DNA of 64,000 nucleotides from Alicyclobacillus shizuokensis NBRC 103103 (GTDB taxonomy: Bacteria > Bacillota > Bacilli > Alicyclobacillales > Alicyclobacillaceae). The notes below the pieces were generated by a model. The model was not told the DNA's origin, ran no database searches, and saw only the letters and a program-made list of their open reading frames with translations. How positions within the stretch are numbered: the stretch's first letter is position 1; every line of letters starts with the position of its first letter. Shown one piece after another: positions 56,921 through 63,372 of this stretch. The position numbers were made by a program, and so were the translations under genes. The stretch lies in NCBI RefSeq assembly GCF_001552255.1, contig NZ_BCQV01000004.1, positions 62,001 to 126,000 on the forward strand. Reading direction: 5' to 3'.

Positions 56921-59467
56921 ATGAAAAGGAAGTATATCGCACGCATCGTGATCGCCTTTGCGGCGATCGTTGTCATCTTTGTCGGCGTGTTTGTGGCTTT
57001 GGTGGAACTGATGCCGTTTGACGCATCGAAACTGGAACTGAATACCACCCCAACGGTGGTCTACGACAAGGACGGGCATCAGCTGGCCACCATCAGCGCG
57101 CCGGGGAGCAACGATATCTCCTATCAGGACATCCCGCAAAATCTCCAGGAAGCCGTGGTGGCGACCGAGGACCGCAACTATTGGCAGGGGTCCAGTATCG
57201 ATGTCCGGGGCCTGTTGCGGGCGGTGTTTGTGGACCTGTGGACAGGGAGTTTGTCCCAGGGCGGCAGCACGATTCAAGAACAATTGGCGAAAATCGTGTA
57301 TCTGACGGATAAGAAGACGTTCTCACGCAAGTTTCAGCAGATTGTCCTGGGTGTCCAGATTGACCGCCACTTCAGCAAGCAAGAGATTCTGGCCATGTAC
57401 CTCAACCGGGCGTACTTCGGCGAGGGAGCCACCGGCATTCGCGAGGCGGCCATCCGTTACTTTGGGGTGGACCTGGCCAAGCACCCGGATCAACTGACGC
57501 TCAACCAGGCGGCGACCTTGGCCGGGCTGTTGCAGGCGCCCAGCGCCTACGATCCGATTGCGCACGAGGCGGCGGCCGAAAAGCGGCGCAACCAGGTGCT
57601 GGAGAACATGGTCAAGTACGGGAATCTCAGCGAGGCCGAGGCCAAGCGGGTCGAGGCCCAGAAGATCAATGCCTCGTTCCACAACCTGCCTGGCGACATC
57701 TGGGACAAAAACCCGATGTTGGCCCGGTTCTTGTTTGATTACGCGGAGCAAAACGGCATCGACAAAGACCTGTTGTCGCAGGGCGGGTTGAAGGTCTATA
57801 CGACCATCGATCCGCAGGTGCAATCGGCTTTGAACACTGTGTTCTATAAGAGCAACAACTACAACAACCACTTTGAACCGGCTGTCCATGGCCAACCGGT
57901 ACCCGCCGCCGCCGTGTTTGTGGACCCGAAGACGGGCGGCATCCTGGGCGCCGCGACGGGGCATGGGGCCAATGCGGTGAACGGGATCGACCGGGTGTAC
58001 GAGTATGGCTCGCCCGGCTCTTCCATCAAGCCGGTGCTCGACTACGGCCCGGCACTGGAAGAGGGCAAAATCACCCCGAACACGGTGCTGGACAACCAGC
58101 CGCACGACTTTGGCCACGGGTTTTACCCGCGAAACGACGAGCCGATGCCATCCCGTGTGACCGTGCGCTGGGCGCTGGCCCACTCGGCCAACGTGGCGGC
58201 CTGCACGGTGCTGCAGATGATTGGCATCGACAACGGAATCCAGTTTGCGGAGAACATGGGCCTGCAGTTTACGCAGAGCGACCATCAACACCTGGGCATC
58301 GCCATCGGCGGTATGCAGAAGGGTGTGACGCCGATGCAGATGGCCCAGGCCTATTCGGCGTTTGACAACGGCGGCGTCATGGAGCAGGCGCACCTGATCC
58401 GGCGCATTGTCAACCAATCCGGGGACGAAATCTACAATTTTGCCCCGGCCGCCAAGCGGGTGATGAGTGAGCGCACCGCGCAAGTCATGACCGACCTTTT
58501 GACCGACGTGGTCAGCTACGGCACCGGCACCGGCGCCCAGCTTCCCGGCTGGGGAGTGGCCGGTAAGACCGGAACGGTGCAGTACGACTCGTCGCAAAAC
58601 GGGGGCCACCAGGATTGGGTGCGCCTGGCCTGGTTTGATGGCTACACACCAAACATGGTCGGCAGCATCTACATGGGATGGAACTACGACGGCCCAGGGC
58701 CGGAATATCACATGCTCAGCAGCGACCAGCCGTCTTATATGTGTTCGCAGATCTTCGGCGATGTGATTCGTCTGGCCGAGCAGGGACGCACGCCCGAGCA
58801 GTTTGACCTGTCGCAGGCCGGCAGCGAATCGACGCAGCCCTCCACTCAGACCAAAACGGCCGTGAAGGGGTTGCACGCGTCCTGGGACGCCACGCGCGGC
58901 AGCGTCGAGCTGTCTTGGCAGTCCGACCTGACCGGAGATGTGAACTTCATCATCTCGCGTTCGGGCGGCGGCACCAGCTCCACCCAGATTGGCGAGACGG
59001 CGAGCCTCAACTTCTACGATGCCAACGTCAGCGAAGGGCAGACGTACACCTACACCGTCCAGGCGGTCGATCCGGCCAGCGGATCGAAGGTGGGCAGCCC
59101 GGCTTCCCTCACGGTCAGGGTGGAGGCGCCGGCATCGCCGCCGGAGAACTCGACAAACAACGGGGTTGGTGAGGGAAATTCCATGGCCCCCGGTACTCCG
59201 GGGGCGCCGGAGAACGGCACGGGCAGCACGACCGCCAACAACTCCGTCAACAACACCACGGGCGCGGTCCCGCCCACCAATTCCACGGGCAACAACACGG
59301 TCCCCACGGGCCCGGTCGGGACGGGTAACGAAGGAGCGACGGGAGGCCCGGTGCCGCCGGTCCAGGGCGGCGGAAGCAATACCGGCAGCGGCGTCGGTAA
59401 CACTCAGCCGAGCAGCGGTGCGAACAGCGAGGCCAAGACGGGCGGGACCAACTCCACAAAAGGATGA
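56921..59467 (+). CDS. class A penicillin-binding protein with FN3 and low-complexity tail
   Basis: This bifunctional enzyme polymerises and cross-links peptidoglycan outside the membrane. Of 848 residues, about 8-30 form the membrane anchor. The glycosyltransferase (GT51) domain runs to about 240, with catalytic Glu83 in ATEDRNYW, then QGGSTIQEQLAKIVYL and RKFQQIVLGVQIDRHFSKQEILAMYLNRAYFGEGATGI. The transpeptidase has Ser367-x-x-Lys370 (GSSIKP), Ser422-Ala-Asn424 and Lys549-Thr-Gly-Thr. A fibronectin type III-like domain (about 650-735) precedes a 110-residue tail of N, T, G, P and S. ATG 56921 follows GGAGACGGAGGA. queC begins just behind. Confidence 0.93.
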   Translation: MKRKYIARIVIAFAAIVVIFVGVFVALVELMPFDASKLELNTTPTVVYDKDGHQLATISAPGSNDISYQDIPQNLQEAVVATEDRNYWQGSSIDVRGLLRAVFVDLWTGSLSQGGSTIQEQLAKIVYLTDKKTFSRKFQQIVLGVQIDRHFSKQEILAMYLNRAYFGEGATGIREAAIRYFGVDLAKHPDQLTLNQAATLAGLLQAPSAYDPIAHEAAAEKRRNQVLENMVKYGNLSEAEAKRVEAQKINASFHNLPGDIWDKNPMLARFLFDYAEQNGIDKDLLSQGGLKVYTTIDPQVQSALNTVFYKSNNYNNHFEPAVHGQPVPAAAVFVDPKTGGILGAATGHGANAVNGIDRVYEYGSPGSSIKPVLDYGPALEEGKITPNTVLDNQPHDFGHGFYPRNDEPMPSRVTVRWALAHSANVAACTVLQMIGIDNGIQFAENMGLQFTQSDHQHLGIAIGGMQKGVTPMQMAQAYSAFDNGGVMEQAHLIRRIVNQSGDEIYNFAPAAKRVMSERTAQVMTDLLTDVVSYGTGTGAQLPGWGVAGKTGTVQYDSSQNGGHQDWVRLAWFDGYTPNMVGSIYMGWNYDGPGPEYHMLSSDQPSYMCSQIFGDVIRLAEQGRTPEQFDLSQAGSESTQPSTQTKTAVKGLHASWDATRGSVELSWQSDLTGDVNFIISRSGGGTSSTQIGETASLNFYDANVSEGQTYTYTVQAVDPASGSKVGSPASLTVRVEAPASPPENSTNNGVGEGNSMAPGTPGAPENGTGSTTANNSVNNTTGAVPPTNSTGNNTVPTGPVGTGNEGATGGPVPPVQGGGSNTGSGVGNTQPSSGANSEAKTGGTNSTKG

Positions 59468-59490
59468 AACCGAGGAGAGGGGGCGCGAGC

Positions 59491-60171
59491 TTGCGCGCAG
59501 TTGTGATTTTGAGCGGCGGTCTGGACAGCACGACCTGCATGGGCATCGCGCAGGACGCCGGGTACGAGTTGTTTCCCATTACCTTCGACTATGGGCAGCG
59601 CCACCGGATTGAGTTGGAGAAGGCGCAGGCGGTGGCGCGCCACTACCGCGTGGCGGAGCACCGGGTGGTCCAGCTTGATTTTCTCTCCCAGTTCGGCGGC
59701 AGCGCCTTGACCGACCGGTCGCTGGCGGTGCCGACAGGAGGCGTGAGCCCGGAGAACGAGATCCCCATCACGTACGTTCCGGGGCGCAACCTCATCTTTT
59801 TGTCCATTGCCGCCTCGTACGCGGAGGTCAAGGGAGCAGAGGCGCTATACATCGGCGTCAACGCTCTCGACTACAGCGGCTATCCGGATTGTCGCCCAGC
59901 CTTCATCTCGGCTGTGCAAGAGGTGCTCCGTGTGGGCACCAAGGCGGGCGTCGAGGGTCGGCCCATACGCATCGAGACGCCGCTTTTGCACTTGACCAAG
60001 GCCGAGATCATCCGCTTGGGTATGCGCCTTGGCGTGCCCTACGAGCTCACCACTTCCTGCTACAACGGTCAGGAGGTGGCGTGTGGCGAGTGCGACAGCT
60101 GCCGGCTGCGCTTGAAAGGGTTCGCGGAGGCGGGGGTTGAAGATCCGATTCCGTATCGGGTGCGGGCCTGA
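59491..60171 (+). CDS. queC: 7-cyano-7-deazaguanine synthase
   Basis: QueC converts 7-carboxy-7-deazaguanine to preQ0 with ATP and ammonia, a step to queuosine in tRNA. The 226-residue protein has the N-type ATP pyrophosphatase loop VVILSGGLDSTTCMGIA, PITFDYGQRHRIELEKA, TYVPGRNLIFLS, GVNALDYSGYPDCRPAF, and the zinc cluster TSCYNGQEVACGECDSCRLRLKGF. TTG 59491 with GAGGAGAGGGGG eight bases upstream is chosen; ATG 59464 overlaps the PBP stop but lacks a spaced ribosome site. queD, queE and queF are not in the window. Confidence 0.92.
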   Translation: MRAVVILSGGLDSTTCMGIAQDAGYELFPITFDYGQRHRIELEKAQAVARHYRVAEHRVVQLDFLSQFGGSALTDRSLAVPTGGVSPENEIPITYVPGRNLIFLSIAASYAEVKGAEALYIGVNALDYSGYPDCRPAFISAVQEVLRVGTKAGVEGRPIRIETPLLHLTKAEIIRLGMRLGVPYELTTSCYNGQEVACGECDSCRLRLKGFAEAGVEDPIPYRVRA

Positions 60172-60346
60172 AACCCCGCTCGGATTCGTCGGACCGGTGG
60201 CTCCTTTTTCCCAGGGTCCGCATGCGGACAGTCCAAATCCGGCAACACTATGCTGCAAACGAGAGCGGGCGGACGCCGCAGGTTTCGGCACGCGGCAGGC
60301 TGCCTGCCATCGCCGCTCCGAGCGGCGACGTGGAGGTGGAGGTCCG

Positions 60347-60823
60347 GTGGACTATCGCATCGCGGACCTTGTCTTTTTGCGTGGGGTGCACCTGTTTGAC
60401 CGGGTCATTCAGCGTGTGACCCACAGCCCGTACAGCCACGTGGCAGGCGTTGTGCTCCCGGGCCAATTGATGGAGGTCCGTGCCTCGCGGCGCGTCGGGT
60501 ATCTGCCGCTGTCTGCGTATAAGGGTCTGGCCGACCTGTACACCTGTGACGAATTGAACGAGGATCAACGTGCGGGCATCCGGGACTACGTGCTGCGGGA
60601 GTACGGCTATGATTATGATTATTGGTTGATTGCCTGGGAAGGGGTACGCTACCTATTGCACCTGGTGCTGCCGTTCCAGGAGCCGCCGCGCACACGCATC
60701 TGTTCGACGCTTTGGTGCGAGGCGTACCGCTCCGTCGGGGTGGACCTGTGCCCGCAGGTCCGTTTTCCGGCTCCGGCCGATCTCGCCCGTTCCTTACGCC
60801 TGCGCAAAGTGCGCGCACTGTAA
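60347..60823 (+). CDS. YiiX/YebB-like permuted papain-fold amidase
   Basis: This 158-residue protein has the conserved His region SPYSHVAGVVLPGQLMEVRASRRVGYLPLSAY and the nucleophile region RTRICSTLWCEAYRSVGVDL in the permuted His-before-Cys order of the YiiX/NlpC-P60-like superfamily. Such enzymes cleave amide or ester bonds; the target is not known. GYDYDYWLIAW is likely the middle helix. There is no signal peptide. GTG 60347 is preceded by two GGAGG copies (60332-60336 and 60338-60342). It starts 175 bases after queC; that gap holds no recognisable element. Confidence 0.7.
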   Translation: MDYRIADLVFLRGVHLFDRVIQRVTHSPYSHVAGVVLPGQLMEVRASRRVGYLPLSAYKGLADLYTCDELNEDQRAGIRDYVLREYGYDYDYWLIAWEGVRYLLHLVLPFQEPPRTRICSTLWCEAYRSVGVDLCPQVRFPAPADLARSLRLRKVRAL

Positions 60824-60856
60824 GGCGGCGGCCCATGGGAGGACAGCCCCGCAAGG

Positions 60857-61324
60857 TCAGATGGGGAAGTTTCGAATCAACTGCCAGGTTTTCTCCAGTT
60901 GTTGCCTACGCTCCTCGGGCGCGCTCACATATTCGACGAGAAACGGCACCGCCTCCGGGTGCAGGCGCAGGAAGAGAACGATGCGTGCCTCCTCGCCCGA
61001 CAGCGGGATGGCAGTGGTCGGCGACCAAGCGCCGGGCGGCGCCTCCGCAGCCGTCGACGCGTGGGATGTGGCCGGCGGCGCATCCGCCGTGGGTCCCGCG
61101 GCCGGGACGCCGTCCTTCTTGGCCGCCGCGTCCGCCCCAGCATCGGTGAGGTCGGAGATGGACACGCCCAAGGCCGCGGCCAAGCGGGCCAACGCGCCCG
61201 CATCCGGTGTGCGGCGGCCGGTTTCGTACATCGCCACGGCGCTCGCCGACAGTCCCGTTTCCTTGGCCAGACGGGCCTGTGTCCAGCCTTTCTGCTTGCG
61301 CCACTCGGCCAGTCTCAGCGGCAT
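60857..61324 (-). CDS. XRE-family regulator with Ala/Pro linker
   Basis: This 155-residue protein has an N-terminal helix-turn-helix (LRLAEWRKQKGWTQARLAKETGLSASAVAMYETGRRTPDAGALARLAAALGVSISDLT). A low-complexity Ala/Pro/Thr linker (about 62-105) joins it to a helical C-terminal segment (SGEEARIVLFLRLHPEAVPFLVEYVSAPEERRQQLEKTWQLI). Relatives in Bacilli are small regulators of unknown target. AAGGAGG lies six bases before ATG 61324. It is located 30 bases after the truncated haemoglobin gene in the same direction, so both may be co-transcribed. Confidence 0.8.
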   Translation of the reverse strand: MPLRLAEWRKQKGWTQARLAKETGLSASAVAMYETGRRTPDAGALARLAAALGVSISDLTDAGADAAAKKDGVPAAGPTADAPPATSHASTAAEAPPGAWSPTTAIPLSGEEARIVLFLRLHPEAVPFLVEYVSAPEERRQQLEKTWQLIRNFPI

Positions 61325-61354
61325 GGTTTTCCTCCTTCGCGAGTGGGTTTGCCT

Positions 61355-61756
61355 CTATTCGGCGTCATCATCCGGGGTATTGACCATATGGTGGGCAGTC
61401 AGTGTGAGCCTCTGCAGCATGAACTGGCGGGCATCCCCGGTAATCCCTGTGTCATCCATGGCTCGCTCCATGCAGCTCAGCCACGCCTTCGCGCGGCGCG
61501 GCGTAACCGGGTGGGGCAGGTGCCGGGCGCGCATCATCGGCGGGCCATAGGTTTCGCTGTACAGTTGCGGGCCGCCGAAAAACTGGGTCAAGAATGCGTA
61601 TTGTTTCTCCCGAATCTCGGTAAAATCCTCTGGGAAAATCGGGCGTAAATCCGGGTCTTGCGCCACGTAATCGTAAAAATGCGTGACCAACTCGCGAATC
61701 GTGTCCGCCCCGCCAATCATCTCGTAGATGGTGGCTGGACTGGGAATCCCTCGCAT
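61355..61756 (-). CDS. truncated haemoglobin, group II (YjbI/GlbO-like)
   Basis: This haem protein of 133 residues may bind oxygen or handle nitric oxide or peroxide in the cytosol. The signature ETYGPPMMRARHLPHPVTPRRAKAWLSCMERAM contains the proximal His of helix F and the group II Trp of helix G; EKQYAFLTQFFGGPQLYSE is the helix E region. AAGGAGTG before ATG 61756 sets the start; longer readings into 61864 run through its promoter. In other Bacilli YjbI is linked with thiol/bacillithiol-type redox proteins, none of which are nearby. Confidence 0.88.
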   Translation of the reverse strand: MRGIPSPATIYEMIGGADTIRELVTHFYDYVAQDPDLRPIFPEDFTEIREKQYAFLTQFFGGPQLYSETYGPPMMRARHLPHPVTPRRAKAWLSCMERAMDDTGITGDARQFMLQRLTLTAHHMVNTPDDDAE

Positions 61757-61838
61757 GTGGCACACTCCTTTTCTGCGGATAAGCCCTTCAGGGTGGAGCC
61801 GTTTTTTCGCAAACCGGTAAAGCCGGCTCACACTCCAT

Positions 61839-61878
61839 AGTATAGCGAATGGTTCGGTCCTCACAAATTCGCTATACT
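61839..61878. promoter_or_regulatory. divergent promoters in a perfect 12-bp inverted repeat
   Basis: AGTATAGCGAAT (61839-61850) and ATTCGCTATACT (61867-61878) are perfect inverted copies with 16 bases between. Each arm carries a TATACT -10 element pointing outward: minus strand toward the haemoglobin gene, plus strand toward ylbF. The two promoters are therefore nearly identical around -10 and could share one regulator or compete for polymerase. Confidence 0.65.
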
Positions 61879-61936
61879 GGAACTAGATGCGTCGGATCTG
61901 CAAGGTGCAGCCGACGAGTCAGATGGGAGGTCGGCC

Positions 61937-62308
61937 ATGAATCCGTACGACAGGGCGCATGAATTAGCCAAGGAAATCCGCAACTCCGAGGTATTTCGAA
62001 GGCTCAAGGACGCCCGTGAGCGTATCGAGCAGGACCCATCGACTTTACATATGCTGCAGGACTTTCGATTGCGCGAGTGGGAGCTGCAGACCAAAATCAT
62101 CGACGGCCAGGAGCTTTCCCAGGAGGAGAAAGACAACCTCGCGAGGCTGGCGGAGATTGTCCGCCTCAACCGCGATGTCAGCGAGTACCTGGAGGCGGAG
62201 CGGCAATTGACCGTCATGTTGATGGATATTCAGGACATTTTGTCCAAAGTGGTCGAGGATGCGCTCCTGCCGCACCCAGGGCTTGGGGATACCAAAGAAA
62301 ACGAGTGA
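61937..62308 (+). CDS. ylbF: YlbF/YmcA family protein
   Basis: This 123-residue all-helical protein belongs to the family of YlbF, YmcA and YheA. In Bacillus subtilis YlbF joins YmcA and YaaT in a complex affecting mRNA processing by RNase Y, competence and sporulation. NPYDRAHELAKEIRNSEVFRRLKDARERIEQDPSTLHMLQDFRLREWELQTKIIDGQELSQEEKDNLARLAEIVRLNRDVSEYLEAE covers the conserved core. Whether this copy is YlbF or a paralogue cannot be settled by eye. ATG 61937 follows GGGAGG, and the next gene begins 16 bases after its stop, so the two form an operon. Confidence 0.8.
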   Translation: MNPYDRAHELAKEIRNSEVFRRLKDARERIEQDPSTLHMLQDFRLREWELQTKIIDGQELSQEEKDNLARLAEIVRLNRDVSEYLEAERQLTVMLMDIQDILSKVVEDALLPHPGLGDTKENE

Positions 62309-62324
62309 AGCGGGAGGGATTGAT

Positions 62325-63008
62325 GTGAAACTGACCTTTCATGGACAGGCGTGTTTTGTCGTTGAAGCGGACGGGCACACCGTTGTGATCGATCCGTTCC
62401 TGTCCGGCAACCCGACGGCGGTGGCGAAACCGGAGGACATCCGTGCCGAGGCGGTCCTGCTCACGCACGGCCATGCTGACCACGTGGCCGACGCGGAGGC
62501 TATCGCGAAAGCCAACGACGCTCTCATTGTGGCTCCCAATGAGTTGGCCATCCTGTACGGACGGCGGGGCTGCCGGGTGCACCCGATGCATTTGGGCGGG
62601 GCGCACGCCTTCGACTTCGGCCGCGTGAAACTGACCCTGGCCTTCCACGGTTCTGCCCTGGAGGACGGGGACCAGCTGCTGTATGCGGGCAATCCCTGCG
62701 GATTCTTGCTCACGATGGGCGAAAAGACGTTGTATCATGCCGGAGACACCGCCTTGTTCGGCGACATGCGGCTGCTGGGAGAACTCAACCGCATTGATGT
62801 GGCTGCGCTGCCCATTGGCGACAACTTCACGATGGGGCCACAGGACGCCCTCATCGCGGCGGAATGGCTCCAAGCCGGACTGGTGATCCCGATGCACTAC
62901 AACACGTTTGACCTGATTCGCCAGGATGCGCAGGCATACGTGCGCTCGCTGGCGGAGAAGGGGTTGAACGGGGCGGTTCTCAAGCCTGGTGAGAGCATCG
63001 AGGTCTAA
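62325..63008 (+). CDS. UPF0173 metal-dependent hydrolase (metallo-beta-lactamase fold)
   Basis: This 227-residue protein is a small MBL-fold enzyme of the YtkL type. KLTFHGQACFVVEADGHTVVIDPFLSGNP is the conserved start, LLTHGHADHVADAEAI the HxHxDH metal motif, and TLYHAGDTALFGDM supplies the bridging Asp; MHYNTFD gives the last His. Its natural substrate is not known. GTG 62325 follows GGGAGGGAT and matches the family N-terminus. It is co-directional with ylbF at 16 bases. Confidence 0.88.
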   Translation: MKLTFHGQACFVVEADGHTVVIDPFLSGNPTAVAKPEDIRAEAVLLTHGHADHVADAEAIAKANDALIVAPNELAILYGRRGCRVHPMHLGGAHAFDFGRVKLTLAFHGSALEDGDQLLYAGNPCGFLLTMGEKTLYHAGDTALFGDMRLLGELNRIDVAALPIGDNFTMGPQDALIAAEWLQAGLVIPMHYNTFDLIRQDAQAYVRSLAEKGLNGAVLKPGESIEV

Positions 63009-63066
63009 TTCACAAGGGTACAGCATGCTGCCCATTCGCACTGAACTTCACACCTGCAGCAAGGAC

Positions 63067-63100
63067 GGCGGCCGCTGGGATTCTTCCGACGGCCGCCGAT
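63067..63100 (+). terminator. hairpin between the UPF0173 and DUF3243 genes
   Basis: GGCGGCCG (63067-63074) and CGGCCGCC (63090-63097) form a perfect eight-pair stem with a 15-base loop followed by GATTTGC. The T content is low, so termination is only probable. Confidence 0.4.
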
Positions 63101-63117
63101 TTGCACCATCGCGCGGG

Positions 63118-63372
63118 TCAGTGGACTTTGTGCTCGGACATCCGGATCATCATTCGCGCCAGAGCCTGTCGGTCCTGGTCGTCTCCCACATCCCATAAGT
63201 CCTTGAGCAGGCGCTCCTGCTCGTTCTTAGGGTCCACCTTGTTGGCCAGGTAGTCTCCCATTTTCTTGGCGACCGCGGTCACCTGGTCTTCGGACATGCC
63301 CATCGTGTGCGCCTTGTTCACCTGATCGCCGAGAAACTCTTGCCACCGGTCGAAATTCTCGAGAACGCTCAT
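63118..63372 (-). CDS. DUF3243 family small protein
   Basis: This 84-residue soluble helical protein begins MSVLENFDRWQEFLGDQVNKAHTMGMSEDQVTAVAKKMGDYLANKVDPKNEQERLLKDLWDVGDDQDRQALARMMIRM, which matches the DUF3243 family of spore-forming Bacilli from end to end. Its function is unknown. CAGGAGGGA precedes ATG 63372. It is convergent with the UPF0173 gene. Confidence 0.85.
   Translation of the reverse strand: MSVLENFDRWQEFLGDQVNKAHTMGMSEDQVTAVAKKMGDYLANKVDPKNEQERLLKDLWDVGDDQDRQALARMMIRMSEHKVH

Follow-up and report, generated by a model that had tools for sequence, protein, structure and literature searches.

Overlapping divergent housekeeping promoters are a general arrangement in bacteria, in which two transcription units are read away from each other. 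In the bidirectional promoters described by Warman, Grainger and colleagues, a single -10 element serves both directions and the start sites commonly lie 10, 18 or 23 bp apart; that class excludes divergent promoters with elements of their own, which are held to escape such direct clashes (PMC12825309). The basal activity of the five E. coli bidirectional promoters tested did not suffice for competition, which emerged upon strong activation (PMC12825309). As to the bases preceding the hexamer, the extended -10 consensus given for Gram-positive bacteria is TRTG at positions -17 to -14, and having one of the two TG pairs may be of help at certain promoters (PMC2613000). In our literature searches no paper was found in which 'truncated hemoglobin' occurs together with either 'YlbF' or 'Alicyclobacillus', and nothing of use, by title, was present among the matches listed for Alicyclobacillus transcription starts.

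The locus analysed here lies in a window of 64,000 nt (the whole stretch of DNA considered, to which all positions refer) from an Alicyclobacillus genome (G000) close to A. kakegawensis, and consists of a perfect inverted repeat placed between a truncated globin gene and a YlbF-family gene. We consider it probable that the repeat is formed by two ordinary housekeeping (sigma-A-type) promoters, arranged back to back, overlapping and sharing a -10 extension.

Flanking genes and the inverted repeat

The truncated globin (133 aa, Bac_globin PF01152) is encoded on the minus strand at 61355-61756, with the gene for an XRE-type HTH protein downstream of it on the same strand (60857-61324); the two are possibly carried on one transcript. 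The plus strand codes for a 123 aa Com_YlbF-family protein (61937-62308, PF06133) and for a UPF0173-type metal-dependent hydrolase (62325-63008; NCBIfam 'metal-dependent hydrolase', PRK00685), the name UPF0173 being carried over from the preliminary description. That description also called the first of these genes ylbF, a name which is loose, as the Com_YlbF-family protein scores below every NCBIfam YlbF/YmcA equivalog cut-off (best model 53 bits, cut-off 130). Three Com_YlbF-family matches are present in the same genome (G000). By the YlbF-family protein, the nearest named relatives found were A. kakegawensis (98%) and A. herbarius (96%).

The neighbourhood at 59464-63372, comprising QueC, XRE, globin, Com_YlbF, UPF0173 and DUF3243 genes, recurs at many loci of the family. 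The XRE gene is present at the corresponding place in 28 compared loci and was not found at those of G008, G021 and G027; no UPF0173 gene was found at the loci of G011, G022 and G028. In G004 and G025 the place lacks globin, in G016, G021 and G027 it lacks YlbF, and in G015 both.

The left arm of the repeat, AGTATAGCGAAT, occupies 61839-61850 and reads ATTCGCTATACT on the minus strand; the right arm, ATTCGCTATACT, occupies 61867-61878 on the plus strand. Separated by a spacer of 16 bp (61851-61866), the arms are complementary at 12 of 12 positions, with a mismatched pair directly beyond them on both the outer and the inner side, and each contains TATACT oriented outward. The 12-bp perfect inverted repeat with arms 16 bases apart had therefore been reported with correct letters and coordinates. 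An imperfect inverted repeat (11 nt arms, 82%) was also observed at 61796-61829, within the predicted globin leader.

The repeat is locally unusual, as judged from shuffle counts and from the flanks of comparable hexamer pairs. A perfect 12-bp inverted repeat with a spacer of 0-40 arose in 7 of 20,000 dinucleotide shuffles of the 177 bp at 61760-61936, and five outward TATAMT pairs with hexamers no more than 100 bp apart were counted in a 464 kb sample of the same genome (window included), with flank identities of 1, 2, 2, 3 and, for the dyad pair, the only one having identical flanks, 6 of 6. At the scale of the whole window, at least one perfect 12-bp repeat was obtained in 14 of 100 shuffles, and three entries at two places were observed, the other place being 36966. 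A bacterial genome is estimated to hold hundreds of divergent gene pairs, and one such repeat among them is not astonishing.

Predicted promoter elements and their conservation in relatives

On the globin side, the predicted -10 (TATACT, 61844-61839, minus strand, within the left arm) matches TATAAT at 5 of 6 positions and is preceded, across a 16 bp spacer, by a predicted -35, TTGTGA (61861-61866, minus strand, 4/6), identical in the three genus genomes out of three. This side has both features of a housekeeping promoter, namely a -10 close to TATAAT and a TTGACA-like -35 at 16-18 bp, and it is the sole promoter-like match in 61300-63300, a match that is weak when taken alone because shuffles of the interval average 0.6. 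On the YlbF-family/UPF0173 side the predicted -10 (TATACT, 61873-61878, plus strand) lies within the right arm, and no recognisable -35 was found in the genus: the best hexamer at 16-18 bp is TGGTTC (61850-61855, plus strand), with 2 of 6 matches and a 17 bp spacer. Since a -35 of the required kind is absent here, we call this side promoter-like solely for its conserved -10. Start sites, placed 7 nt past each hexamer, are predicted near 61832 (minus strand) for the globin side and near 61885 (plus strand) for the YlbF side, approximately 53 bp apart. A transcribed hairpin was considered and discarded, as these predicted starts would leave the dyad outside both transcripts.

The family set comprised 41 genomes, with a globin match in 38 and a YlbF-family match in 28. 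Judged from match coordinates, the two genes are adjacent and divergent in 25 genomes, the exceptions among the 28 being G004, G006 and G025. Gaps were extracted from these 25 regions and hexamers at least 5/6 like TATAAT were accepted as -10 elements; where several candidates occurred, one nearest the gene was retained, except in G036 and G035, where TATAGT was chosen although TAGAAT was nearer. The two outward-facing -10 elements that had been proposed for the globin and ylbF-UPF0173 sides were found again throughout the family, an outward -10 facing globin in 24 of the 25 regions (all but G008) and one facing the YlbF gene likewise in 24 (all but G009).

Spacing and symmetry vary. Among the 23 genomes having both -10s, the hexamers are 28 bp apart in the three genus genomes only, the distance outside the genus being -2 in G022 and 33-94 bp elsewhere; the flanks of the arms agree at 6, 6 and 4 of 6 positions in the genus and at a mean of 1.75 (0-4) in the other 20 pairs. 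Out of all 25 regions, the perfect dyad was found in the present genome and in A. kakegawensis only, the latter being identical in both arms and in the spacer (16/16). The conserved -10s, together with the variable spacing and flanks, indicate that the putative promoters are common to the family and that perfect symmetry is confined to few of its members.

Compared with the present genome, A. herbarius is identical at 22 of 24 arm positions and 14 of 16 spacer positions, so that the arms, with 2/24 changes versus 2/16, are not clearly better conserved than the spacer. Its two arm changes fall outside both hexamers, at non-corresponding positions, and are uncompensated; alignment of the relatives hence gave no sign of the covariation between arms that had been envisaged. 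An imperfect dyad outside the genus was found only in G012, a distant relative, among the 10 loci scanned: CAGTATAGCGCA and TGGGCTATACTG, complementary at 11 of 12 positions, in a shifted register and with a spacer of 23.

Words recurring in 15 representative gaps were compared with 200 single-base shuffles. The only 6-mers above the largest shuffle maximum (8) were AGTATA, CCTCCC, ATTATA and AGGAGG, that is -10 and Shine-Dalgarno words; CATTCG, present in 7 of the 15 gaps, was inside the shuffle range. At 7 and 8 letters, the -10 words that stood out include flanking bases, such as CGCTATAC in 5 of 15 gaps (shuffle maximum 4).

The 12-mer elsewhere and the bases before the hexamer

The exact word TTCGCTATACT occurs three times in the genome, as the two arms and at C26:38797, this last copy having TTGTCT 17 bp upstream and its hexamer 26 bp from an ATG. 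When up to one mismatch was allowed, 26 sites were retrieved, with no excess over the 26 of the reversed control. The search for further genomic sites proposed in the preliminary description thus yielded that one additional exact copy, the near-matches equalling the control.

Across the 41 genomes, ATTCGCTATACT gave 32 matches in 20 genomes, versus 5 for the reversed control; base composition alone would predict approximately 18 at 50% G+C and 4-11 at 55-63%. Thirty of the 32 places were inspected; they are not independent of each other, as several represent the same promoter in orthologous loci. In 12 of them a TTG-type -35 is present at 17-18 bp, and the 18 without one, some of which are probably inside coding sequence, include the four locus copies in G000 and A. 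kakegawensis. The eight proteins scanned downstream fall into unrelated families or into none, being two semialdehyde dehydrogenases (which we take to be argC), a short-chain dehydrogenase, a bacilliredoxin, an EamA transporter, an XRE protein and, twice, a small ORF having no Pfam match.

This small ORF (MRLGL.IEYEGKNYDILELP...) follows ATTCGCTATACT in G000 and A. herbarius (L003:1501-1511, L207:1598-1900) and a search of Pfam retrieved no match for it; its homologue in G061 is also preceded by ATTCGCTATACT, and in A. kakegawensis the 12-mer is found at the corresponding place. The promoter before XRE in G015, where globin and YlbF are missing, still reads ATTCGCTATACT. The YlbF-side -10 is ACG[CT]TATACT in G004 and G025, in which globin is missing.

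On the globin side, TTCGn stands before the hexamer in 14 of 24 genomes, compared with 2 of 24 on the YlbF side, where, among the 24 regions scored, the two are the present genome and A. kakegawensis. The G two bases before the hexamer is found in 21 of 24 and 13 of 24, respectively. The preference was evaluated over the 41 genomes against two control words, TTCGNNNNTATAMT, in which TTCGN is moved upstream by three bases, and GTTCN put in the position of TTCGN. TTCGNTATAMT was counted 420 times, TTCGNNNNTATAMT 226, GTTCNTATAMT 196 and TATGNTATAMT 338; the TTCGN word was higher than its shifted counterpart in 34 genomes, lower in 6 and equal in 1, and higher than GTTCN in 36, lower in 4 and equal in 1. 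Codon use may contribute to this excess.

In the 464 kb sample of the present genome, with genes called by a crude longest-ORF rule, TTCGn was found before 3 of 48 TATAMT lying between genes, the arms themselves accounting for two of these, and before 0 of 79 lying within genes (Fisher p 0.052). CG just before n was found at 2 of 19 intergenic -10s with a start downstream, both of them at this locus, and at 10 of 79 in-gene -10s; it is thus no commoner at intergenic -10s, which argues against a general preference. Since TTCGn keeps the G, a -10 extension preferred in this lineage is conceivable, and the family counts would give a weak hint of it, to which the sample from the present genome lends little support.

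Explanations for the symmetry and comparison with known systems

If two ordinary promoters stand back to back, the leftward one would drive globin, and probably XRE too, and the rightward one the YlbF-family and UPF0173 genes. The perfect symmetry would follow from both hexamers being TATACT and both having ATTCGC upstream. Because each -35 region lies between the hexamers and the predicted starts are so close, the two promoters would not be expected to hold polymerase at the same time. Some observations point away from this reading, namely the YlbF side lacking a -35, the globin -35 matching at only 4 of 6 positions, and the 18 of 30 12-mer places devoid of a TTG-type -35 at 17-18 bp; a bound protein or an extended element is still conceivable in view of these, of the G012 dyad, of the flank-bearing 7- and 8-mers and of the enrichment of the 12-mer.

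The best rival is a shared operator, as put forward in the preliminary description. Here a regulator acting as a dimer or tetramer, for which the XRE protein is the most obvious candidate, would bind the dyad and repress both units. It would suit the perfect dyad of two species and the imperfect one of G012, the XRE gene kept in place at 28 loci, and the G015 promoter retaining ATTCGCTATACT in front of XRE even though globin and YlbF are missing. An operator would be expected to keep its symmetry in relatives or to show compensating changes, and neither was found: the arms diverge in most relatives, the geometry is not kept and the changes in A. herbarius do not correspond and are uncompensated. 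Moreover, the recognition region of the XRE protein, S-x-S-x-x-AMYET-x-RR, is the same in 28 of 28 loci, whereas arms and spacing vary outside the genus, and the conserved words of the 15 gaps are of the -10 and Shine-Dalgarno types only. We hence regard this operator as quite unlikely, one specific to the genus being what might still lie at the dyad. The alternative sigma factor sequence that had also been suggested, common to both genes and defining a small regulon, would explain the same 12-mer at both promoters and the third exact copy before a small ORF, shared with A. kakegawensis, A. herbarius and the G061 homologue. That third copy, in the present genome as in A. kakegawensis, is nonetheless accompanied by TTGTCT 17 bp upstream, TATACT is itself 5/6 of a housekeeping -10, and no excess of sites before related genes was found, the near-matches in the genome equalling the reversed control and the 12-mer preceding unrelated genes, in 12 of 30 places with a TTG-type -35; this explanation appears scarcely credible.

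Chance convergence of the spacer bases, with ATTCGC having no role, agrees with the free divergence of the arms in relatives and with odds of approximately 1 in 4096 per pair at equal bases, over the estimated hundreds of divergent pairs in a genome. It is at odds with TTCGn on the globin side of 14 of 24 genomes and with TTCGNTATAMT exceeding two control words across the family, and for the repeat as a whole we judge it highly unlikely; for the YlbF arm by itself a coincidence is possible, whereas TTCGn in the globin arm looks kept. It is also unlikely, though worth stating, that ATTCGC/TTCGn is a lineage-specific extended -10 replacing TRTGn and letting promoters with a poor -35 work, the mirrored pair being two such promoters competing for polymerase.

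With two back-to-back promoters as the preferred reading, comparison with relatives makes a striking palindrome between divergent genes explicable with no need for a regulator, since the -10s are kept and the symmetry is mostly not. Should the TTCGn extension be functional, knowledge of the housekeeping promoters of Alicyclobacillus and its relatives would be slightly enlarged. The globin/YlbF pair also offers a natural series of promoter spacings, from -2 to 94 bp, in which competition for polymerase could be studied.

In G022 the gap is short (ATTATATACT at L092:625-634, G022:C141:9624-9633), TATAAT for globin and TATACT for YlbF overlap by 2 bp, and the predicted starts are approximately 23 bp apart, as is also the case in bidirectional promoters published as sharing a -10; in G011 and G028, which belong to the genus of G022, the -10s are separate and 44-45 bp apart. 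By its sequence, the G022 region fits the shared-(-10) class as outlined in the cited description (PMC12825309). The locus of the present genus resembles that class, so outlined, in divergent transcription, pseudo-symmetry and the expected exclusion of polymerase, and differs from it in having two -10s and predicted starts approximately 53 bp apart; with hexamers 28 bp apart, too far for a common element, its assignment to the class was rejected, and a clash would still be expected here, the hexamers being close enough. Compared with the Gram-positive TRTGn element, as presented in PMC2613000, the bases concerned likewise occupy -17 to -14, directly before the hexamer, with G at -14, but they read TTCGn, here a candidate element. 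The arrangement is closest to that of overlapping divergent housekeeping promoters, with which it shares two outward -10s, overlapping polymerase regions and two divergent units; unlike in ordinary promoters of this kind, the arms complement each other letter for letter over 12 bp, and do so in two species.
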